Shown: piece by piece, positions 19,313-30,889 of the stretch
Layout of the letters: each line of letters begins with the position of its first letter
Numbering within the stretch: position 1 is the stretch's first letter
NCBI GenBank assembly: GCA_951813255.1
Contig: OX638353.1
Coordinates: 1,426,001-1,490,000 of the forward strand
Direction of reading: 5' to 3'
From: an uncultured Dehalococcoidia bacterium
Lineage (GTDB): Bacteria > Chloroflexota > Dehalococcoidia > Lucifugimonadales > JAAXIE01
Length of the DNA stretch: 64,000 bases
Translations under genes and position numbers: made by a program
The notes under the pieces: generated by a model
The model's input: the letters and a program-made list of their open reading frames with translations, nothing else
Database searches by the model: none
What the model was told of the DNA's origin: nothing

Positions 19313-20296
19313 TTACAACTTCAACAGCGCCTTCGCGTTCTCTGAGAGTATGGCGGCGCGCTCGGTTTCTGGGATGGGGAGGCCTTCGACGTCGGCGACG
19401 GTTGGTTCCATGGGGCCGTAGGGGTAGTCGCTGCCGAAGAGGAGCTTGTCGGGGCCGGACATGCCGTGGGCCAGCATGATTGCAGGCGGGTGGTAGCACA
19501 CAGTATCCATGTAGACTCGCTGGAAGTAGTCGGCAGGAAGTCCCGTGGCCCTGCCCGCCCACTCGCGACCCCGGATGCCTGCGCCACGGTTGATGCGACC
19601 CATCAGATAGGGAATGGTGCTGCCACAGTGGCACAAGATGATCTTCAAGCCGGGGAATCTCTCCATGGTACCGCTGAGAATGAGGCGCATCATCGCCAGT
19701 GTAGTGTCGTAGAGGAAGCCCAATACCTGCACCATGCGCCAGTCACGCAGGGGCTCAATTGACGCCATGACGGGCCAGCTTGGGTGAATCATGATGGGCA
19801 CGTCCAACTGCTGGATGCGTTCGTAGACGGGCATCAGGTCGTCATCGTCCAGCATCTTGCCGGCCACGTTGGACGTGACCATGAAAGCGCGCATGCCTAG
19901 TTCGTTCACCGCGCGATTCGCCTCTTCCACTGCCCGTTGGGGATCCAGCAGGGGCAGGCTGCCCATGCCGGCAAATCGCTCAGGATTCTCTCGGACCACT
20001 CGTGCCAGCCCCTCGTTGGCAGCTTGAGCCAAAGCCACGTTCAACCCAGCGTCGTTGCCCGTCTCGCCAGCAGGACAGATGATGCTGACCACATGGGTGT
20101 CGATGCCCGCTGCGTCCATGTCCTGAATGCGCCGGTCGATGAGATGCATGCCGGGCTGGAGTTGATAGGACTGTATGGGGTCTACATTCAGCACCCATCC
20201 CTCGTCGTTGGAGATGGTATTGGGATAGGCCTGTCGCCCCGAGAGCACCTCCATGTACTCGACTGGGGCGAAGTGGTTATGGATGTCGATACGCAT
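19313..20296 (-). CDS. ACMSD-like amidohydrolase 2 family protein (327 aa)
   Basis: Metal-dependent TIM-barrel enzyme of the amidohydrolase-2 group that includes 2-amino-3-carboxymuconate-6-semialdehyde decarboxylase. The N-terminal IDIHNHFAP supplies the first metal histidines, PIMIHPSWP the next, LCHCGSTIPY another, and LLFGSDYPYGP the terminal Asp. It would decarboxylate or hydrate a small unsaturated acid; the substrate is unknown. ATG 20296 is preferred over ATG 20302 because GGAAGG is six bases from it. It is the last gene of the minus-strand run that contains the selenoprotein, 36 bp after the 353-aa gene. Confidence 0.8.
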   Translation of the reverse strand: MRIDIHNHFAPVEYMEVLSGRQAYPNTISNDEGWVLNVDPIQSYQLQPGMHLIDRRIQDMDAAGIDTHVVSIICPAGETGNDAGLNVALAQAANEGLARVVRENPERFAGMGSLPLLDPQRAVEEANRAVNELGMRAFMVTSNVAGKMLDDDDLMPVYERIQQLDVPIMIHPSWPVMASIEPLRDWRMVQVLGFLYDTTLAMMRLILSGTMERFPGLKIILCHCGSTIPYLMGRINRGAGIRGREWAGRATGLPADYFQRVYMDTVCYHPPAIMLAHGMSGPDKLLFGSDYPYGPMEPTVADVEGLPIPETERAAILSENAKALLKL

Positions 20297-20332
20297 AGCC
20301 ATCCTTCCGATAGCCCACGAATGGCCTACTAA

Positions 20333-21394
20333 CTAGTGAACTCTTTCCGTCACGGCCCTGGTCGCCGACCAGACGGGCATCCACGAGGAATGGCGCCCAG
20401 CACCCCCGGCAACCACTATCAGGATATCCTCAGGGCGGGCTGTCATGGGCACGAGGTAGTCGTCCGGTGCGTTCTCTATCCAGTCGGGCCAGGTGCGTTC
20501 ACCATAGTGGGAGCGGCCTAGGAGGCCTCCCTTGGGCAGGCGGCAGCGCTCGTAGAGATACTCGCGGATGTCCTGCTTGGAGTATCCGGCAGCTGCGATT
20601 TCCTGGGCGTGTTCGGGACAGAGGACGAGCAACACCTGGCAGTCTCGCCCCTGTATGTAGTAGCTGACCACACCCAACACCTTCATGCTGTCAGCCACGG
20701 TCTGAAGCACCTCTTCGCCCGTTTCTACGGTAGTCTCGGTAATCTGGTGGAAGGCCCGGACGGCGGCCAGTGTCACCGTGCTGTCCTGGTCTAGGAAGCC
20801 CCGCTCCGTGTGGAACGGGTCCCATGGGCTCTGTGATTCGTTTTCAGCGGTGCAGAAGGTGTATTTTGCAGGCTGGGCTTGGGTCGATTTCTCCATCTCG
20901 CCCGGACGGGCACCACCAAGATTGCGGACAACCAAGGCCAGTGACCGCCCGAGAACGGCGTTAGCCTGATATCCCGATCCAAAGCAGGACGTGTCGCCGT
21001 TGACACCTAACTGACCTGCAATGGGCCCATTGACGACCATCAAGGGCGCAGCCCCTGCTGTAGTGGCTGCCACGCCACCAACGTTGTAATCAGGAGTGAG
21101 TGCCGCCCGAACGGCCGCGAGCACCACGGGCATGTGCTGTGGCATTGCTCCTGCCATCACGGCGTTAGCGGCCACCTTCTCCACGGTCACCACACCTTCT
21201 CCCGGAGGCATGATGCCCAACACCTCTTCGGGCGGTAGACCCACGGCATCCACCATGGCTGCCACCCGCTCTTCGGTGGGCGGCACGATAGGGAGACCGT
21301 CGCTCCAACCACGTTCCAAGAAGAGCCGGTTCACCTCGTCGAATGCGGATGCCACATGCAGACGACTTGCCCTCATACTGGACTGGCTGGTCAT
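20333..21394 (-). CDS. Conserved protein paired with the UGSC selenoprotein (353 aa)
   Basis: I cannot assign a reaction. The protein is soluble, opens with FLERGWSDGLPIVPPTEE (about residues 24-41), contains a Gly-rich stretch around ANAVMAGAMPQHMPV and GQLGVNGDTSCFGSGYQAN, and ends with PEDILIVVAGGAGRHSSW. The DGLP/PPTEE opening and the alternating Gly/Ala segments are typical of a family that I recall lying next to UGSC selenoproteins. Its ATG overlaps the selenoprotein stop as ATGA, so the two are translationally coupled and probably form one complex or pathway step. Cys in DTSCFGSG and in FCTAEN are candidate redox partners for the Sec. Confidence 0.6.
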   Translation of the reverse strand: MTSQSSMRASRLHVASAFDEVNRLFLERGWSDGLPIVPPTEERVAAMVDAVGLPPEEVLGIMPPGEGVVTVEKVAANAVMAGAMPQHMPVVLAAVRAALTPDYNVGGVAATTAGAAPLMVVNGPIAGQLGVNGDTSCFGSGYQANAVLGRSLALVVRNLGGARPGEMEKSTQAQPAKYTFCTAENESQSPWDPFHTERGFLDQDSTVTLAAVRAFHQITETTVETGEEVLQTVADSMKVLGVVSYYIQGRDCQVLLVLCPEHAQEIAAAGYSKQDIREYLYERCRLPKGGLLGRSHYGERTWPDWIENAPDDYLVPMTARPEDILIVVAGGAGRHSSWMPVWSATRAVTERVH

Positions 21395-21930
21395 GGCGCA
21401 CCTCTCGTCAGGCCTGCCAGAATTTCAGGCAGGGCAGCCTCGGCCGCCTCTTTCAGTAGTGCTGCCGACTTACTGGCCATGGGGTGCTGCACCAGTATCA
21501 GCCGGTGTTGGGGCATGGCCTTGGCCTGAGTCCGCATGCGGGCTGCCTGCTCGAAGGCCGTGGTGACAAGGGTGACGGCTGGCCTTCCTCGTTTCTCTAC
21601 TTCAACCGCGTCGTGGAGACCCCACGCTGTGCAGGACCCTCAATCGGCAACGCCATGCACCACGGCATCACATTGGGCCAGCAAGGCGTCCATTTTGGCC
21701 GGGTCCATGGGGATGCTGGGGTTGGCCTTCCGAACAATGACGGTATCGACTCCCTCTTCTCCCAGCAGCAGCTTCAAATTGTCCATGAAGCGATCGGAGT
21801 TATGACGAGAGTTGTCGATCAGGCCTATTCTGGCGCCTTGCATCCTCTCCAGCCTTGGATGAGGCCTTTCCTCCGGGAGCGCCCCCTCGGCTGCGGGGTG
21901 AACAATGGTCAGCATCTCATCGGGTGGCAA
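21391..21930 (-). CDS. UGSC-family selenoprotein, in-frame TGA read as selenocysteine at residue 97 (179 aa)
   Basis: A normal ORF call ends at the TGA at 21640-21642. Reading through gives ...HGVAD-U-GSCTAWGLHD, then EKRGRPAVTLVTTAF, and an uninterrupted frame to a TGA at 21391-21393 that overlaps the next ATG. The phrase UGSCT, the HDAVEVEKRG helix and the VTTAF strand match the UGSC selenoprotein family as I know it. A SECIS-like hairpin directly follows the TGA. The start is TTG 21930 with AGGAGG five bases upstream, inside the last codons of lipB; ATG 21915 is the alternative. The Sec and the Cys three residues later form a likely redox pair. The substrate is unknown; the neighbourhood is 2-oxoacid dehydrogenase and lipoate genes. 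Confidence 0.85.
21612..21642 (-). promoter_or_regulatory. Bacterial SECIS-like element just after the Sec codon
   Basis: On the minus strand the TGA (21642-21640) is followed after 18 nt by the loop GGTCT (21621-21617), closed by a 5-bp perfect stem CGTGG/CCACG (21626-21622 with 21616-21612). The loop sequence and the 18-nt spacing equal those of the E. coli fdhF SECIS as I remember it. It would bind SelB and direct Sec insertion. Confidence 0.75.
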
Positions 21931-22633
21931 TTGCTCCTCCTGTGCTCATTTGTAGTGCGCCGGCGAGGGCCTCATTCGGCTGCCTCTCGGCCATATTCAG
22001 TGCCAGTTCACGGCCTAGGTGATAGGTCAATCCGTAGGCCACTGTGTCGATGTCGACGGGGGCTCCCAGCAGTCGCTCCATGGATGTGACTCCAGCATCG
22101 GTGATGCCACAAGGAATGATGTGCCGGAAATATCTGAGGTCGGGGACCACATTGAGAGCCAGGCCATGGTAGGCGACGCCCCCGCTGATTTTCACCCCAA
22201 TCGCTCCGATCTTCTCGTTTTCCACCCACACGCCTGTTCGCCCTTCCACCACACCACCTTCAATCCCGAACTGGGCCAAAGTCCCCAGCATCGCCCGCTC
22301 CAACGCGCGCACATAGCGCAGAGGCCCGCCCCACGAGCGCAGGTCCACCAGTGGGTAGGCCACCAATTGGCCCAGCCCGTGATACGTCACCTGTCCGCCG
22401 CGGTCAGTTTCGTGCAGCGCGACGCCTAGGGACTGCAACTCAGCATCATCCAGGAGGACATGCTCACGGTCGCCACGGCGTCCCAAGGTATACACGTGGG
22501 GGTGTTGCAGCAGGAGCAGCGTGTTCGCCTGTGCTCCGGTCTTGATGGCTTCTACGAGTTGCCTTTGCAGCCGCCAAGCCTCGCCGTATTCGACGACACC
22601 CAACGAGATGACCTGGCAAGATGGAAGGGCCAC
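21917..22633 (-). CDS. lipB: Lipoyl(octanoyl) transferase LipB (238 aa)
   Basis: Transfers octanoyl from ACP to the lipoyl domains of 2-oxoacid dehydrogenase E2 and GcvH, the first step of lipoate assembly. Family motifs are present: TLGRRGDREH, ETDRGGQVTYHGLGQLVAYP (catalytic-region RGG and HGPGQ equivalent), KIGAIGVKI (catalytic Lys) and GVAYHGLALNV; the Cys of the catalytic pair is in IIPCGITDAGVTS. Cytoplasmic, usual length. The start is GTG 22633. It lies 20 bp after the E2 gene, whose lipoyl domain it should modify, and its 3' end overlaps the selenoprotein start by 14 bp. No lipA is present in the window. Confidence 0.92.
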   Translation of the reverse strand: MALPSCQVISLGVVEYGEAWRLQRQLVEAIKTGAQANTLLLLQHPHVYTLGRRGDREHVLLDDAELQSLGVALHETDRGGQVTYHGLGQLVAYPLVDLRSWGGPLRYVRALERAMLGTLAQFGIEGGVVEGRTGVWVENEKIGAIGVKISGGVAYHGLALNVVPDLRYFRHIIPCGITDAGVTSMERLLGAPVDIDTVAYGLTYHLGRELALNMAERQPNEALAGALQMSTGGAIATR

Positions 22634-26040: not shown

Positions 26041-28227
26041 CTAGGAATGTTCGTGGCGTTGTGAGCTGGCTACCAGCAGGTCCCCCCGGTCACCCCACCG
26101 CTTGAAGAAGCGCTTGAAGTTCTTGAAGCTGAGTTCATTCCGTTGCCCCTCATCCAAGGCGGCCCACACCCGGTGCTCGTGCCGGACTATGGGCAGGTCA
26201 TCTACCGCAAATATGCGGTGCCCGAGGTTCTTCATCTGGAAACTGAAGTCGAGGTCCAGGTTCCGGTAAAAGCGGAAGCATTCACGCATCAGCCCCACTT
26301 CGTTGATGAGCGAGCGACGGAAACCCTGGCAATAAGCCTGCATGGCGTCTGCTTCAGCGGAGGTCACCTCGTCATGGAAGTGGTGCATGTCGTCTGTACA
26401 TACGCCCCAAGGCCCTACCATAGAGACCTGCTCGTCATCCAGCCACCTGTCGATGGGCGTCAGGATGTCGCCGGTGACTTCCGTGGAGGGGTCCAGGAAC
26501 ACCACTGTTCGTCCGCGACACTGCATAAGGCCGATATTCTTGGCCGCAGCCTCACCGAGCACGTGGTCGGCGTGAACCACATTGACACGAGAATCGCTGG
26601 CCCGCAATTCCTCCAGCCACTCAGAGGTGCCGTCAGTGGAGCCGTTGTCCACCACGATAAGCTCCGCGTCGTGACCTTCGGACCACTTAAGTGCGCTGAG
26701 GGTGATACGCTGCACGTCCTCCATGTAGCCCGAGACCACCGATACCATGGAGAAATCCATCGTGGGGGGCTCCTCCAAGAAGGATGCTACCTCCTTGGGC
26801 GAGGACACCGTTGCGAACTGGCCTGCCATTCGCTCCAAGGGGGTTTTGGGGCGCACCATTGCACCGACAGCTTGGTCTTCCACCACATAGCCATGGGATG
26901 CGATGTGTTCCCGCAAAGCATCGGCCTCTCCGTAGGAGCCGCTGGTCCGAAGGCCGCTGCGCTGCTCTACATGGGTTCCCACCTGCTCAGGCACTTCGTG
27001 ACTAGCAGGCGCCTTGTTCAAGCCCAACCCGAGGAGCTCGTCGAATTCCGCCAGCAAGCCTGCCTTTGCCGCGTCGGGCAGGGGCGATTGCGCCATGTTC
27101 CACACGGTGGCCAAGGCACTGGGCAGATCGAGGTCGCTCTCAACCTTCTCCCAGAACTTCTCCCGCCACTCCTCAGCTTCGGACGGCATTTCCGCCAGGG
27201 TTGGGGCCTGGCTCCAGACAGCCATGCGGCCCTGCAATCCGGTCAAGGCGCGCTGGGCTGCCCTGAGGGTGGAGAAGGTAAAGTTCATCCGGTTGCGGTA
27301 GCGGACTGTCAGGCAGAGGTAGCGGAAGGCAAGAGGGTCGAATCCACGCTCCACCAAGTCGTCGAGGATAAAGACGTTGCCGGAGGACTTGGCCATCTTT
27401 ACGCCGTCGGCGAGGAGGTGCTGGCCATGGACCCAGTAACGCACGTAGGGCACGCCAAAGGCGGCTTCGCTCTGAGCGATCTCGTCCTCGTGGTGAGGGA
27501 AGATGTTGTCCACACCGCCTGTGTGGATGTCGAGCTGCTGGCCCATGTACTTGGTCGACATGGCGGAGCATTCAATGTGCCAGCCGGGGAAGCCCTCTCC
27601 CCACGGGCTGTCCCACTTCATCTCTCGTCCCGGCTCGGCCAGCTTCCAGAGGGTGAAGTCTCGCGGGTCGCGCTTTAGGGGGTCAGCCTCACTGCGGACA
27701 CCCTCCATCAGCCCTGCCTGCTGGTTGCCAGACAAGGCCCCATAAGCCTCGAACTTGCCGACATCGAAGTAGATGTTTCCACCCACAAGGTAGGCGTAGC
27801 CCTTGTCCATCAACTGCTCGACCAAGGCGACCATTTCCGCTACGTGCTCAGTGGCCCAAGGATACACGTGAGCGGGAAGGATGTTCAGCTTGGCTTCGTC
27901 GTCGTAGAAGGCTTGGGCATAAAACTGGGCGATTTCCTGTGGTGTCTTGCCCTCTTCCAAGGCCGCCAGAATCACGCGATCGCCGCCTTCTTCCAGCATC
28001 TCCTGGCGCATATGGCCCACGTCGGTGATGTTCTTTACGTGCATCACCTCGTAGCCACGGTGCATCAGGGCGCGGCGTATCCAATCGGCCATCAGGTAAC
28101 TACGGAGGTTTCCAATATGGGCGTAGCGGTACACCGTAGGTCCGCAGGTGTACATCCTGGCTACACCCGGGTCCAGGGTCCGCACCTCTTCTGCCCGTCG
28201 CGTCATTGTATTGTGTAAACGAAGCAC
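26041..28227 (-). CDS. cysS: Cysteinyl-tRNA synthetase fused to a family 2 glycosyltransferase (728 aa)
   Basis: Numbering is from GTG 28227. Residues 1 to about 465 are a complete CysRS: zinc Cys28 in YTCGPTVYRYAHIGN with the HIGN box at 37-40, further zinc ligands in WHIECSAM (Cys220) and FPHHEDE, the KMAKSSGN loop at about 277-284, and the anticodon-side YGEADALREHI segment. From about 491 a GT-A family 2 domain follows: SMVSVVSGY, LIVVDNGSTDGT, GEAAAKNIG and FLDPSTE (DXD position). Normal CysRS is about 460-500 aa, so the second domain is an addition of about 240 residues. The frame opens at 28326, but the conserved N-terminus begins at GTG 28227. It heads the 2-oxoacid dehydrogenase/lipB/selenoprotein run. 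Confidence 0.88.
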   Translation of the reverse strand: MLRLHNTMTRRAEEVRTLDPGVARMYTCGPTVYRYAHIGNLRSYLMADWIRRALMHRGYEVMHVKNITDVGHMRQEMLEEGGDRVILAALEEGKTPQEIAQFYAQAFYDDEAKLNILPAHVYPWATEHVAEMVALVEQLMDKGYAYLVGGNIYFDVGKFEAYGALSGNQQAGLMEGVRSEADPLKRDPRDFTLWKLAEPGREMKWDSPWGEGFPGWHIECSAMSTKYMGQQLDIHTGGVDNIFPHHEDEIAQSEAAFGVPYVRYWVHGQHLLADGVKMAKSSGNVFILDDLVERGFDPLAFRYLCLTVRYRNRMNFTFSTLRAAQRALTGLQGRMAVWSQAPTLAEMPSEAEEWREKFWEKVESDLDLPSALATVWNMAQSPLPDAAKAGLLAEFDELLGLGLNKAPASHEVPEQVGTHVEQRSGLRTSGSYGEADALREHIASHGYVVEDQAVGAMVRPKTPLERMAGQFATVSSPKEVASFLEEPPTMDFSMVSVVSGYMEDVQRITLSALKWSEGHDAELIVVDNGSTDGTSEWLEELRASDSRVNVVHADHVLGEAAAKNIGLMQCRGRTVVFLDPSTEVTGDILTPIDRWLDDEQVSMVGPWGVCTDDMHHFHDEVTSAEADAMQAYCQGFRRSLINEVGLMRECFRFYRNLDLDFSFQMKNLGHRIFAVDDLPIVRHEHRVWAALDEGQRNELSFKNFKRFFKRWGDRGDLLVASSQRHEHS

Positions 28228-28345
28228 ACCGTCACCCCCAGGAGGCGGATTCCACACCAACCGCCCACCATCGCTAGGGGCGATTCTACCACAAATCTCT
28301 ATTAGAACCGTAGTGCGGCGGGCCACACCCTGAACAGGGGCCGCG

Positions 28346-30423: not shown

Positions 30424-30889
30424 TAGGAGCCGGTCAGGCTGGGTGGTCGCCGCCCTCGCGAGCGAGGGGGGAGGAAAGTCCGGGCTCCATCGGGCAGGGT
30501 GCTGGGTAACGCCCAGGCTCCTCTTTCAACGGGGGAGACGGAAAGTGCCACAGAAACATACCGCCGACGGGCCTTCGCAGGCTTACCTGAGGGGGACTGG
30601 GTAAGGTTGAAAGGGTGAGGTAAGAGCTCACCGCGTCCTCAGTGATGGGGATGGCAGGCAAACCCCACCCGGAGCAAGGCCGAATAGAGGGACTATGGGC
30701 GCCCGGCCCGTCCCCGGGTTGGCTGCTTGAGTCTAGCGGCAACGCTGTCCCACGAGGACGCCACCCTTCTTGGGCTGGTAGACCTAGATAGATGACCACC
30801 GCCCTCGGTGTTCCAGGAGGAAGTCTCCGCGACGTAAACTGGCAACCCCGAGAGGAACAGAACCCGGCTTACAGGCCTGCCCGGCTCCT
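30424..30889 (+). ncRNA. rnpB: RNase P RNA, bacterial type A, with an enlarged P19-region hairpin
   Basis: Catalytic RNA of ribonuclease P, which trims the 5' ends of pre-tRNAs. Conserved core blocks are in order: GAGGAAAGTCCGGGCTCC (30471-30488), the ACAGAAACATACCGCC block (30550-30565), the GGTAAGAGCTCACCG block (about 30619), ACCCGGAGCAAGGCC, GGCTGCTTGAG, TAGATAGATGACCACCG and CAGAACCCGGCTTAC near the 3' end. The ends pair over about 15 bp (AGGAGCCGG with CCGGCTCCT), which fixes the boundaries to within a few bases. At about 466 nt it is longer than the usual 350-400; most of the excess is a hairpin at 30803-30855 in the P19 position. Confidence 0.93.

Follow-up and report, generated by a model that had tools for sequence, protein, structure and literature searches.

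An in-frame TGA in the window (the whole stretch of 64,000 nucleotides analysed here) almost certainly encodes selenocysteine (Sec), as judged from sequence comparison, and the gene containing it belongs to the UGSC family of selenoproteins; on this main point the preliminary description of this DNA was right. That description gave no strand; the gene is on the minus strand, and its frame runs for 91 codons from ATG 21915 to TGA 21642-21640, continues with GSCTAWGLHD, as that description had claimed, and ends at TGA 21393-21391. The stretch after GSCTAWGLHD is 72 codons long rather than the 78 first counted (82 sense codons follow the in-frame TGA in all), and the product has 174 residues including Sec92. 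This numbering is from ATG 21915; the Sec is residue 97, the number originally given, when counted from TTG 21930, the longest possible start. The TTG overlaps lipB, which ends at 21917, and the ATG, lying directly past the lipB stop, is the more likely start codon. The ATGA overlap described between this gene and the next is real, the ATG of the next gene (hereafter the partner) being at 21394-21392. The upstream neighbour lipB is probably merely co-oriented with the UGSC gene and outside the system.

Table 1. Features at the UGSC locus (positions in the window).
Feature	Position	Strand	Evidence or remark
Predicted UGSC-family selenoprotein gene	21391..21915	-	PF24696 146 bits, NF041046 123.9 bits, AF2 pLDDT 95
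In-frame TGA, very probably read as Sec	21640..21642	-	TGA in relatives, Cys without SelA, TAG in Blastococcus
Putative resolving Cys codon of the UxxC motif	21631..21633	-	Invariant in 47-sequence alignment A1
Predicted bacterial SECIS hairpin CGUGG-GGUCU-CCACG	21612..21626	-	nt 17-31 from U of UGA
Partner gene, 353 aa	20333..21394	-	ATGA overlap with UGSC stop; conserved family
lipB, octanoyltransferase, upstream neighbour	21917..22633	-	
Amidohydro_2 family hydrolase, downstream neighbour	19313..20302	-	

Elsewhere in the window, a 761-aa ORF (26041-28326, minus strand) has a cysteinyl-tRNA synthetase (CysRS) catalytic domain (PF01406, 329 bits) fused to a family 2 glycosyltransferase domain (PF00535) at its C-terminal end; another, better-scoring CysRS-like gene is found in the host genome at C1:2315352-2316227. 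The window also holds a bacterial RNase P RNA of class A at 30431-30887 on the plus strand (Rfam RF00010, 254 bits).

A search with the read-through protein returned the UGSC family, against which the preliminary description had proposed to search the residues after the TGA, from both model collections: Pfam PF24696 at 146.3 bits (cut-off 25, profile positions 2-171 of 172), and NCBIfam NF041046, 'UGSC family (seleno)protein', over its full length at 123.9 bits (E 5e-36), i.e. just under the cut-off of 125. The UGSC-containing protein is a family from the Global Ocean Sampling selenoproteome of about 2008 (PMC2398784). The kind of object is therefore already known: the window protein is a further member of a known selenoprotein family, and its function would be the new part. 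It shares with the family the alignment of the whole protein, the UGSC motif, the in-frame TGA, the SECIS hairpin and a Sec-decoding genome, and differs in nothing essential, its score being slightly below the NCBIfam cut-off. The term 'hidden' selenoprotein does not hold for the family, which has been described in print and is modelled in both Pfam and NCBIfam, but it keeps some force for this gene, since with a score 1.1 bits below the NCBIfam cut-off an annotation pipeline might still truncate the protein. The window gene is one of four diverged UGSC copies (27-45% identical) in one genome.

Profile comparison links UGSC to GrdB, the selenoprotein B of glycine/sarcosine/betaine reductase (PF07355). 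The window protein has no PF07355 match, PF24696 being its sole match at E 1e-3, and none of the 47 UGSC members matched PF07355 at E 0.01. When aligned by hhalign, UGSC and the GrdB C-terminal domain scored 96.7% (P 4.6e-10) with the Sec residues aligned, and still scored 88% when the four UxxC motif columns were masked, as against 4% for the best of 60 column-shuffled controls and 1% for the reversed control. These profile results support a distant homology between UGSC and the C-terminal, Sec-bearing domain of glycine/betaine reductase GrdB. The likeness, to GrdB and to the short PrdB-like UPxC proteins related to it, covers the C-terminal ~95 residues: a Sec that opens a helix after a strand, within U-G-S/T-C, with E-x-x-G-x-P ahead of the motif and a conserved HP region. 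However, the N-terminal ~350 residues of GrdB have no counterpart in UGSC, which pairs with another partner family; no GrdA, GrdE or GrdC-D gene lies beside UGSC at the locus, where the neighbours are the partner, the amidohydrolase and lipB. A literature search limited to open-access text found no statement of a link between UGSC and GrdB. The host genome has a GrdB-family gene of its own (C1:1209905-1210939, L082), in which the Sec motif is UGTS rather than UGTC, so that the usual second Cys is missing; variants similarly without the second Cys occur in L081 and L085. Three UGSC-like domains without Sec and xGSC were also seen (L060 5436-5906, L061 427-894 and L154, with DTRSGS, DMGVTP and GEGGNPT), possibly as non-catalytic versions.

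The partner is a nearly constant companion of UGSC. All four UGSC genes of the host genome have a copy of it close by on the same strand, and in the wider phylum it lies on the UGSC strand in 19 of 20 loci, mostly adjacent and in either order. Starting from the partner, UGSC was found in the fetched flanks of 73 of 80 partner loci from named genomes, spanning Chloroflexota, Proteobacteria, Rokubacteria, Actinobacteria and haloarchaea. Partner and UGSC are fused in several cases, e.g. in USTC-motif proteins of ~577 aa; a fusion of UGSC with an 'Unknown_1' domain was mentioned in 2008 (PMC2398784). No credible Pfam or NCBIfam match to the partner family was obtained with 44 members searched. Its AF2 model has a pLDDT of 92.8, and a PDB fold search with this model gave no convincing match; fumarate hydratase and cyclic amide hydrolases came up weakly, at low TM-scores, and were set aside. 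PDB sequence searches with the UGSC and partner families returned nothing usable.

We modelled the fold of the read-through protein with AF2, using 47 relatives and with Sec modelled as Cys. The model has a pLDDT of 95 over the whole protein and is built of five beta-alpha units. The Sec position comes after strand 3 and immediately precedes the third helix; this helix spans residues 93-108, straight after Sec, so the HDAVEVEKRG helix of the preliminary description holds. The best PDB fold matches were flavodoxin-like or TIR-like with moderate TM-scores, and thioredoxin was absent among the best 50 matches listed. The 2008 survey gave UGSC a likely thioredoxin-like fold (PMC2398784), which is unsupported by the model, as its best PDB matches are not thioredoxins; the predicted fold is flavodoxin-like. 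This bears on the 2008 suggestion that UGSC is a simple thioredoxin-like disulfide/selenylsulfide oxidoreductase, rather than a GrdB-like substrate-activating enzyme. Such a role would suit the UxxC redox motif, which is typical for thiol oxidoreductases and which UGSC shares with the thioredoxin-like UxxC selenoproteins, but it sits poorly with the five-stranded alpha/beta model, with a profile similarity that is to GrdB, and with the near-obligate pairing with one dedicated partner, and we regard it as less likely than not.

A much less probable reading is that the TGA is a true stop, i.e. that this is a pseudogene, an ordinary UGSC gene broken in two by a nonsense mutation or by an error in sequencing. 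A standard gene caller would take the TGA as a stop, and in a genome assessed as 94% complete with 7.7% contamination errors are conceivable; the codon is nevertheless conserved far beyond this gene. Each of the four UGSC paralogs of the host genome has one in-frame TGA, in the same column, and about 120 relatives have TGA at the aligned Sec column, so that the Sec- or Cys-aligned column sought by the preliminary description is there. In a sample of the phylum, UGSC occurred in 32 of 301 genomes; nearly all matches hold exactly one stop, a TGA, which stands at the Sec column in every phylum locus examined, the exceptions being two degenerate copies and a fragment at an N run. SelA genes are present in 31 of the 32 UGSC-bearing genomes, compared with 244 of the 301 genomes in the whole sample (counts read from lists). 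The frame is also conserved past the TGA, one of the points on which the first reading had staked its refutation: mean identity to 46 relatives is 30% after the TGA and 28% before it, i.e. the downstream half is as conserved as the upstream half. The putative resolving-Cys position of the UxxC motif is invariant in the 47-sequence alignment.

Named genomes provided an independent set of 80 loci, fetched by a search with the partner-family alignment; a single-protein search for related loci among named-genome contigs gave no match. The Sec column is TGA in 71 of 79 matches and Cys in four (Natrialba asiatica, Natronomonas gomsonensis, a Binatia and a Sphingomonas), each of the four being a single open frame, and SelA over the cut-off is absent from all four of these genomes. 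A Blastococcus UGSC has TAG at the Sec column, with the hairpin kept and SelA in the genome; UAG-encoded Sec, including in UGSC proteins, has been reported for the Geodermatophilaceae, the family of Blastococcus (PMC5330540). The Blastococcus gene thus has TAG at the Sec position and the same hairpin, whereas the window organism uses UGA and a tRNA-Sec with a UCA anticodon. The codon at the Sec column therefore tracks the local Sec decoding system, unlike a stop or an error.

Beyond the checks that the preliminary description had named, a predicted bacterial SECIS hairpin with covariation was found downstream of the TGA. It starts 13 nt past the UGA, with 18 nt between UGA and loop and with G23-U24 in the loop, in agreement with bacterial SECIS elements, in which the apical loop lies 16-37 nt from the UGA and has a conserved G (PMC10778597). 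G23 and U24 are required in the E. coli fdhF SECIS (PMC8659212) and stand in the same place in the UGSC hairpin (the fdhF sequence was confirmed), although the bulged U17 of fdhF is absent. In 38 distinct relatives the stem cells are paired to 97.4%, whereas shuffles reach 78% and slid registers no more than 56%; there are 26 double-sided changes, and the covariation score of 0.475 exceeds that of shuffles (0.139) and of slid registers (0.09 or less). Coding constraint does not account for the pairing, because the choice of synonymous valine codon tracks the codon before it: of 18 cases, 17 have GTC following TGG or GTG following TGC or GCC (Fisher p=0.0007, an optimistic value as the sequences are related). 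The independent set agrees: all 20 valine codons after TGG are GTC, and all 5 after TGC or GGC are GTG. Its Sec members keep G23 in 64 of 69 and U24 in 66 of 69, and C24 is found in all four Cys members. Single-sequence folding of the 56 nt after the window TGA was no better than shuffles (z +0.3); the hairpin alone is thus not unusually stable, and the case for the SECIS is comparative, resting on family conservation. A hairpin CGGC-GGUC-GCCG, with a 4-bp stem, a GGUC loop and a register slightly off that of the unfused family, was seen in fused UGSC-partner proteins with the motif USTC (L047, L048, L050, L051, L053, L054 and L055). The shared TGA column, the equally conserved downstream half, the covarying hairpin and the Cys in place of Sec where SelA is missing all count against a pseudogene, which we reject on conservation as very improbable.

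Least probable of all, to the point of being negligible, is that the locus makes two proteins, an N-terminal piece of 91-96 residues and an internally initiated C-terminal piece: UGA recoding in known selenoprotein genes of bacteria is partial (30-40% in E. coli, PMC4513850) and some truncated product is to be expected, but the predicted fold is a single continuous alpha/beta domain with strands on either side of Sec, and the Cys members are single open frames.

Selenocysteine, the reading that we retain, calls for decoding machinery, and the selA, selB, selD and tRNA-Sec genes that the preliminary description had proposed to look for are all present in the host genome (3.40 Mb, one contig). 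SelA (552.4 bits), SelB (345.8 bits) and two SelD genes (393.4 and 388.8 bits) score over curated cut-offs, and the tRNA-Sec (70.3 bits) is over its cut-off and has the anticodon TCA (UCA) by ARAGORN. Both SelD genes carry a TGA in LSHCAG-U-AAKIS, a position that we take to be the SelD active site. These Sec-containing selD genes are alike and non-identical (C1:15765-16688, L014, and C1:3386799-3387722, L013), with an ungapped identity of 69% over the fetched loci, and each lies ~15 kb from a contig end, which suggests a duplicated segment.

In the mechanism that we envisage, SelB on the hairpin 13-28 nt downstream of the UGA would deliver Sec-tRNA(UCA), and the ribosome would read through the UGA to give a single 174-residue UGSC-family selenoprotein. 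This is predicted to form a five-stranded alpha/beta domain with Sec at a helix N-terminus and another conserved Cys at the third position after it. A redox role is plausible. UGSC and the partner protein would together form a two-component enzyme, in which Sec, as a selenolate, would be the nucleophile and the partner would complete the active site; Sec would then be freed through a Sec-S-Cys bond (with Cys95 as the resolving residue) reduced by cellular thiols. The chemistry could be reductive C-X cleavage or a reaction of the thiol/disulfide type, and would serve to catabolise small organic compounds. The neighbours of UGSC genes include amidohydrolases, type III CoA transferases and enolase-superfamily, TPP and molybdopterin enzymes, and gene-neighbourhood Pfam counts revealed no common pathway among them. 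A GrdB-like two-component mechanism with the partner is proposed tentatively, and we place at somewhat under even chances the idea that UGSC and partner make up a two-component Sec enzyme of a new class, which has an ancestor in common with the GrdB Sec domain.

The locus is a clean example of how a gene caller would truncate a real protein, and provides a full set of evidence for calling Sec from sequence. The dedicated partner and the glycine reductase Sec domain give testable leads to the function of UGSC, a family abundant in aquatic metagenomes. If the proposal is true, the two-component class would have expanded among bacteria of diverse kinds, as well as in haloarchaea in a Cys form, and would serve them in breaking down small organic compounds.
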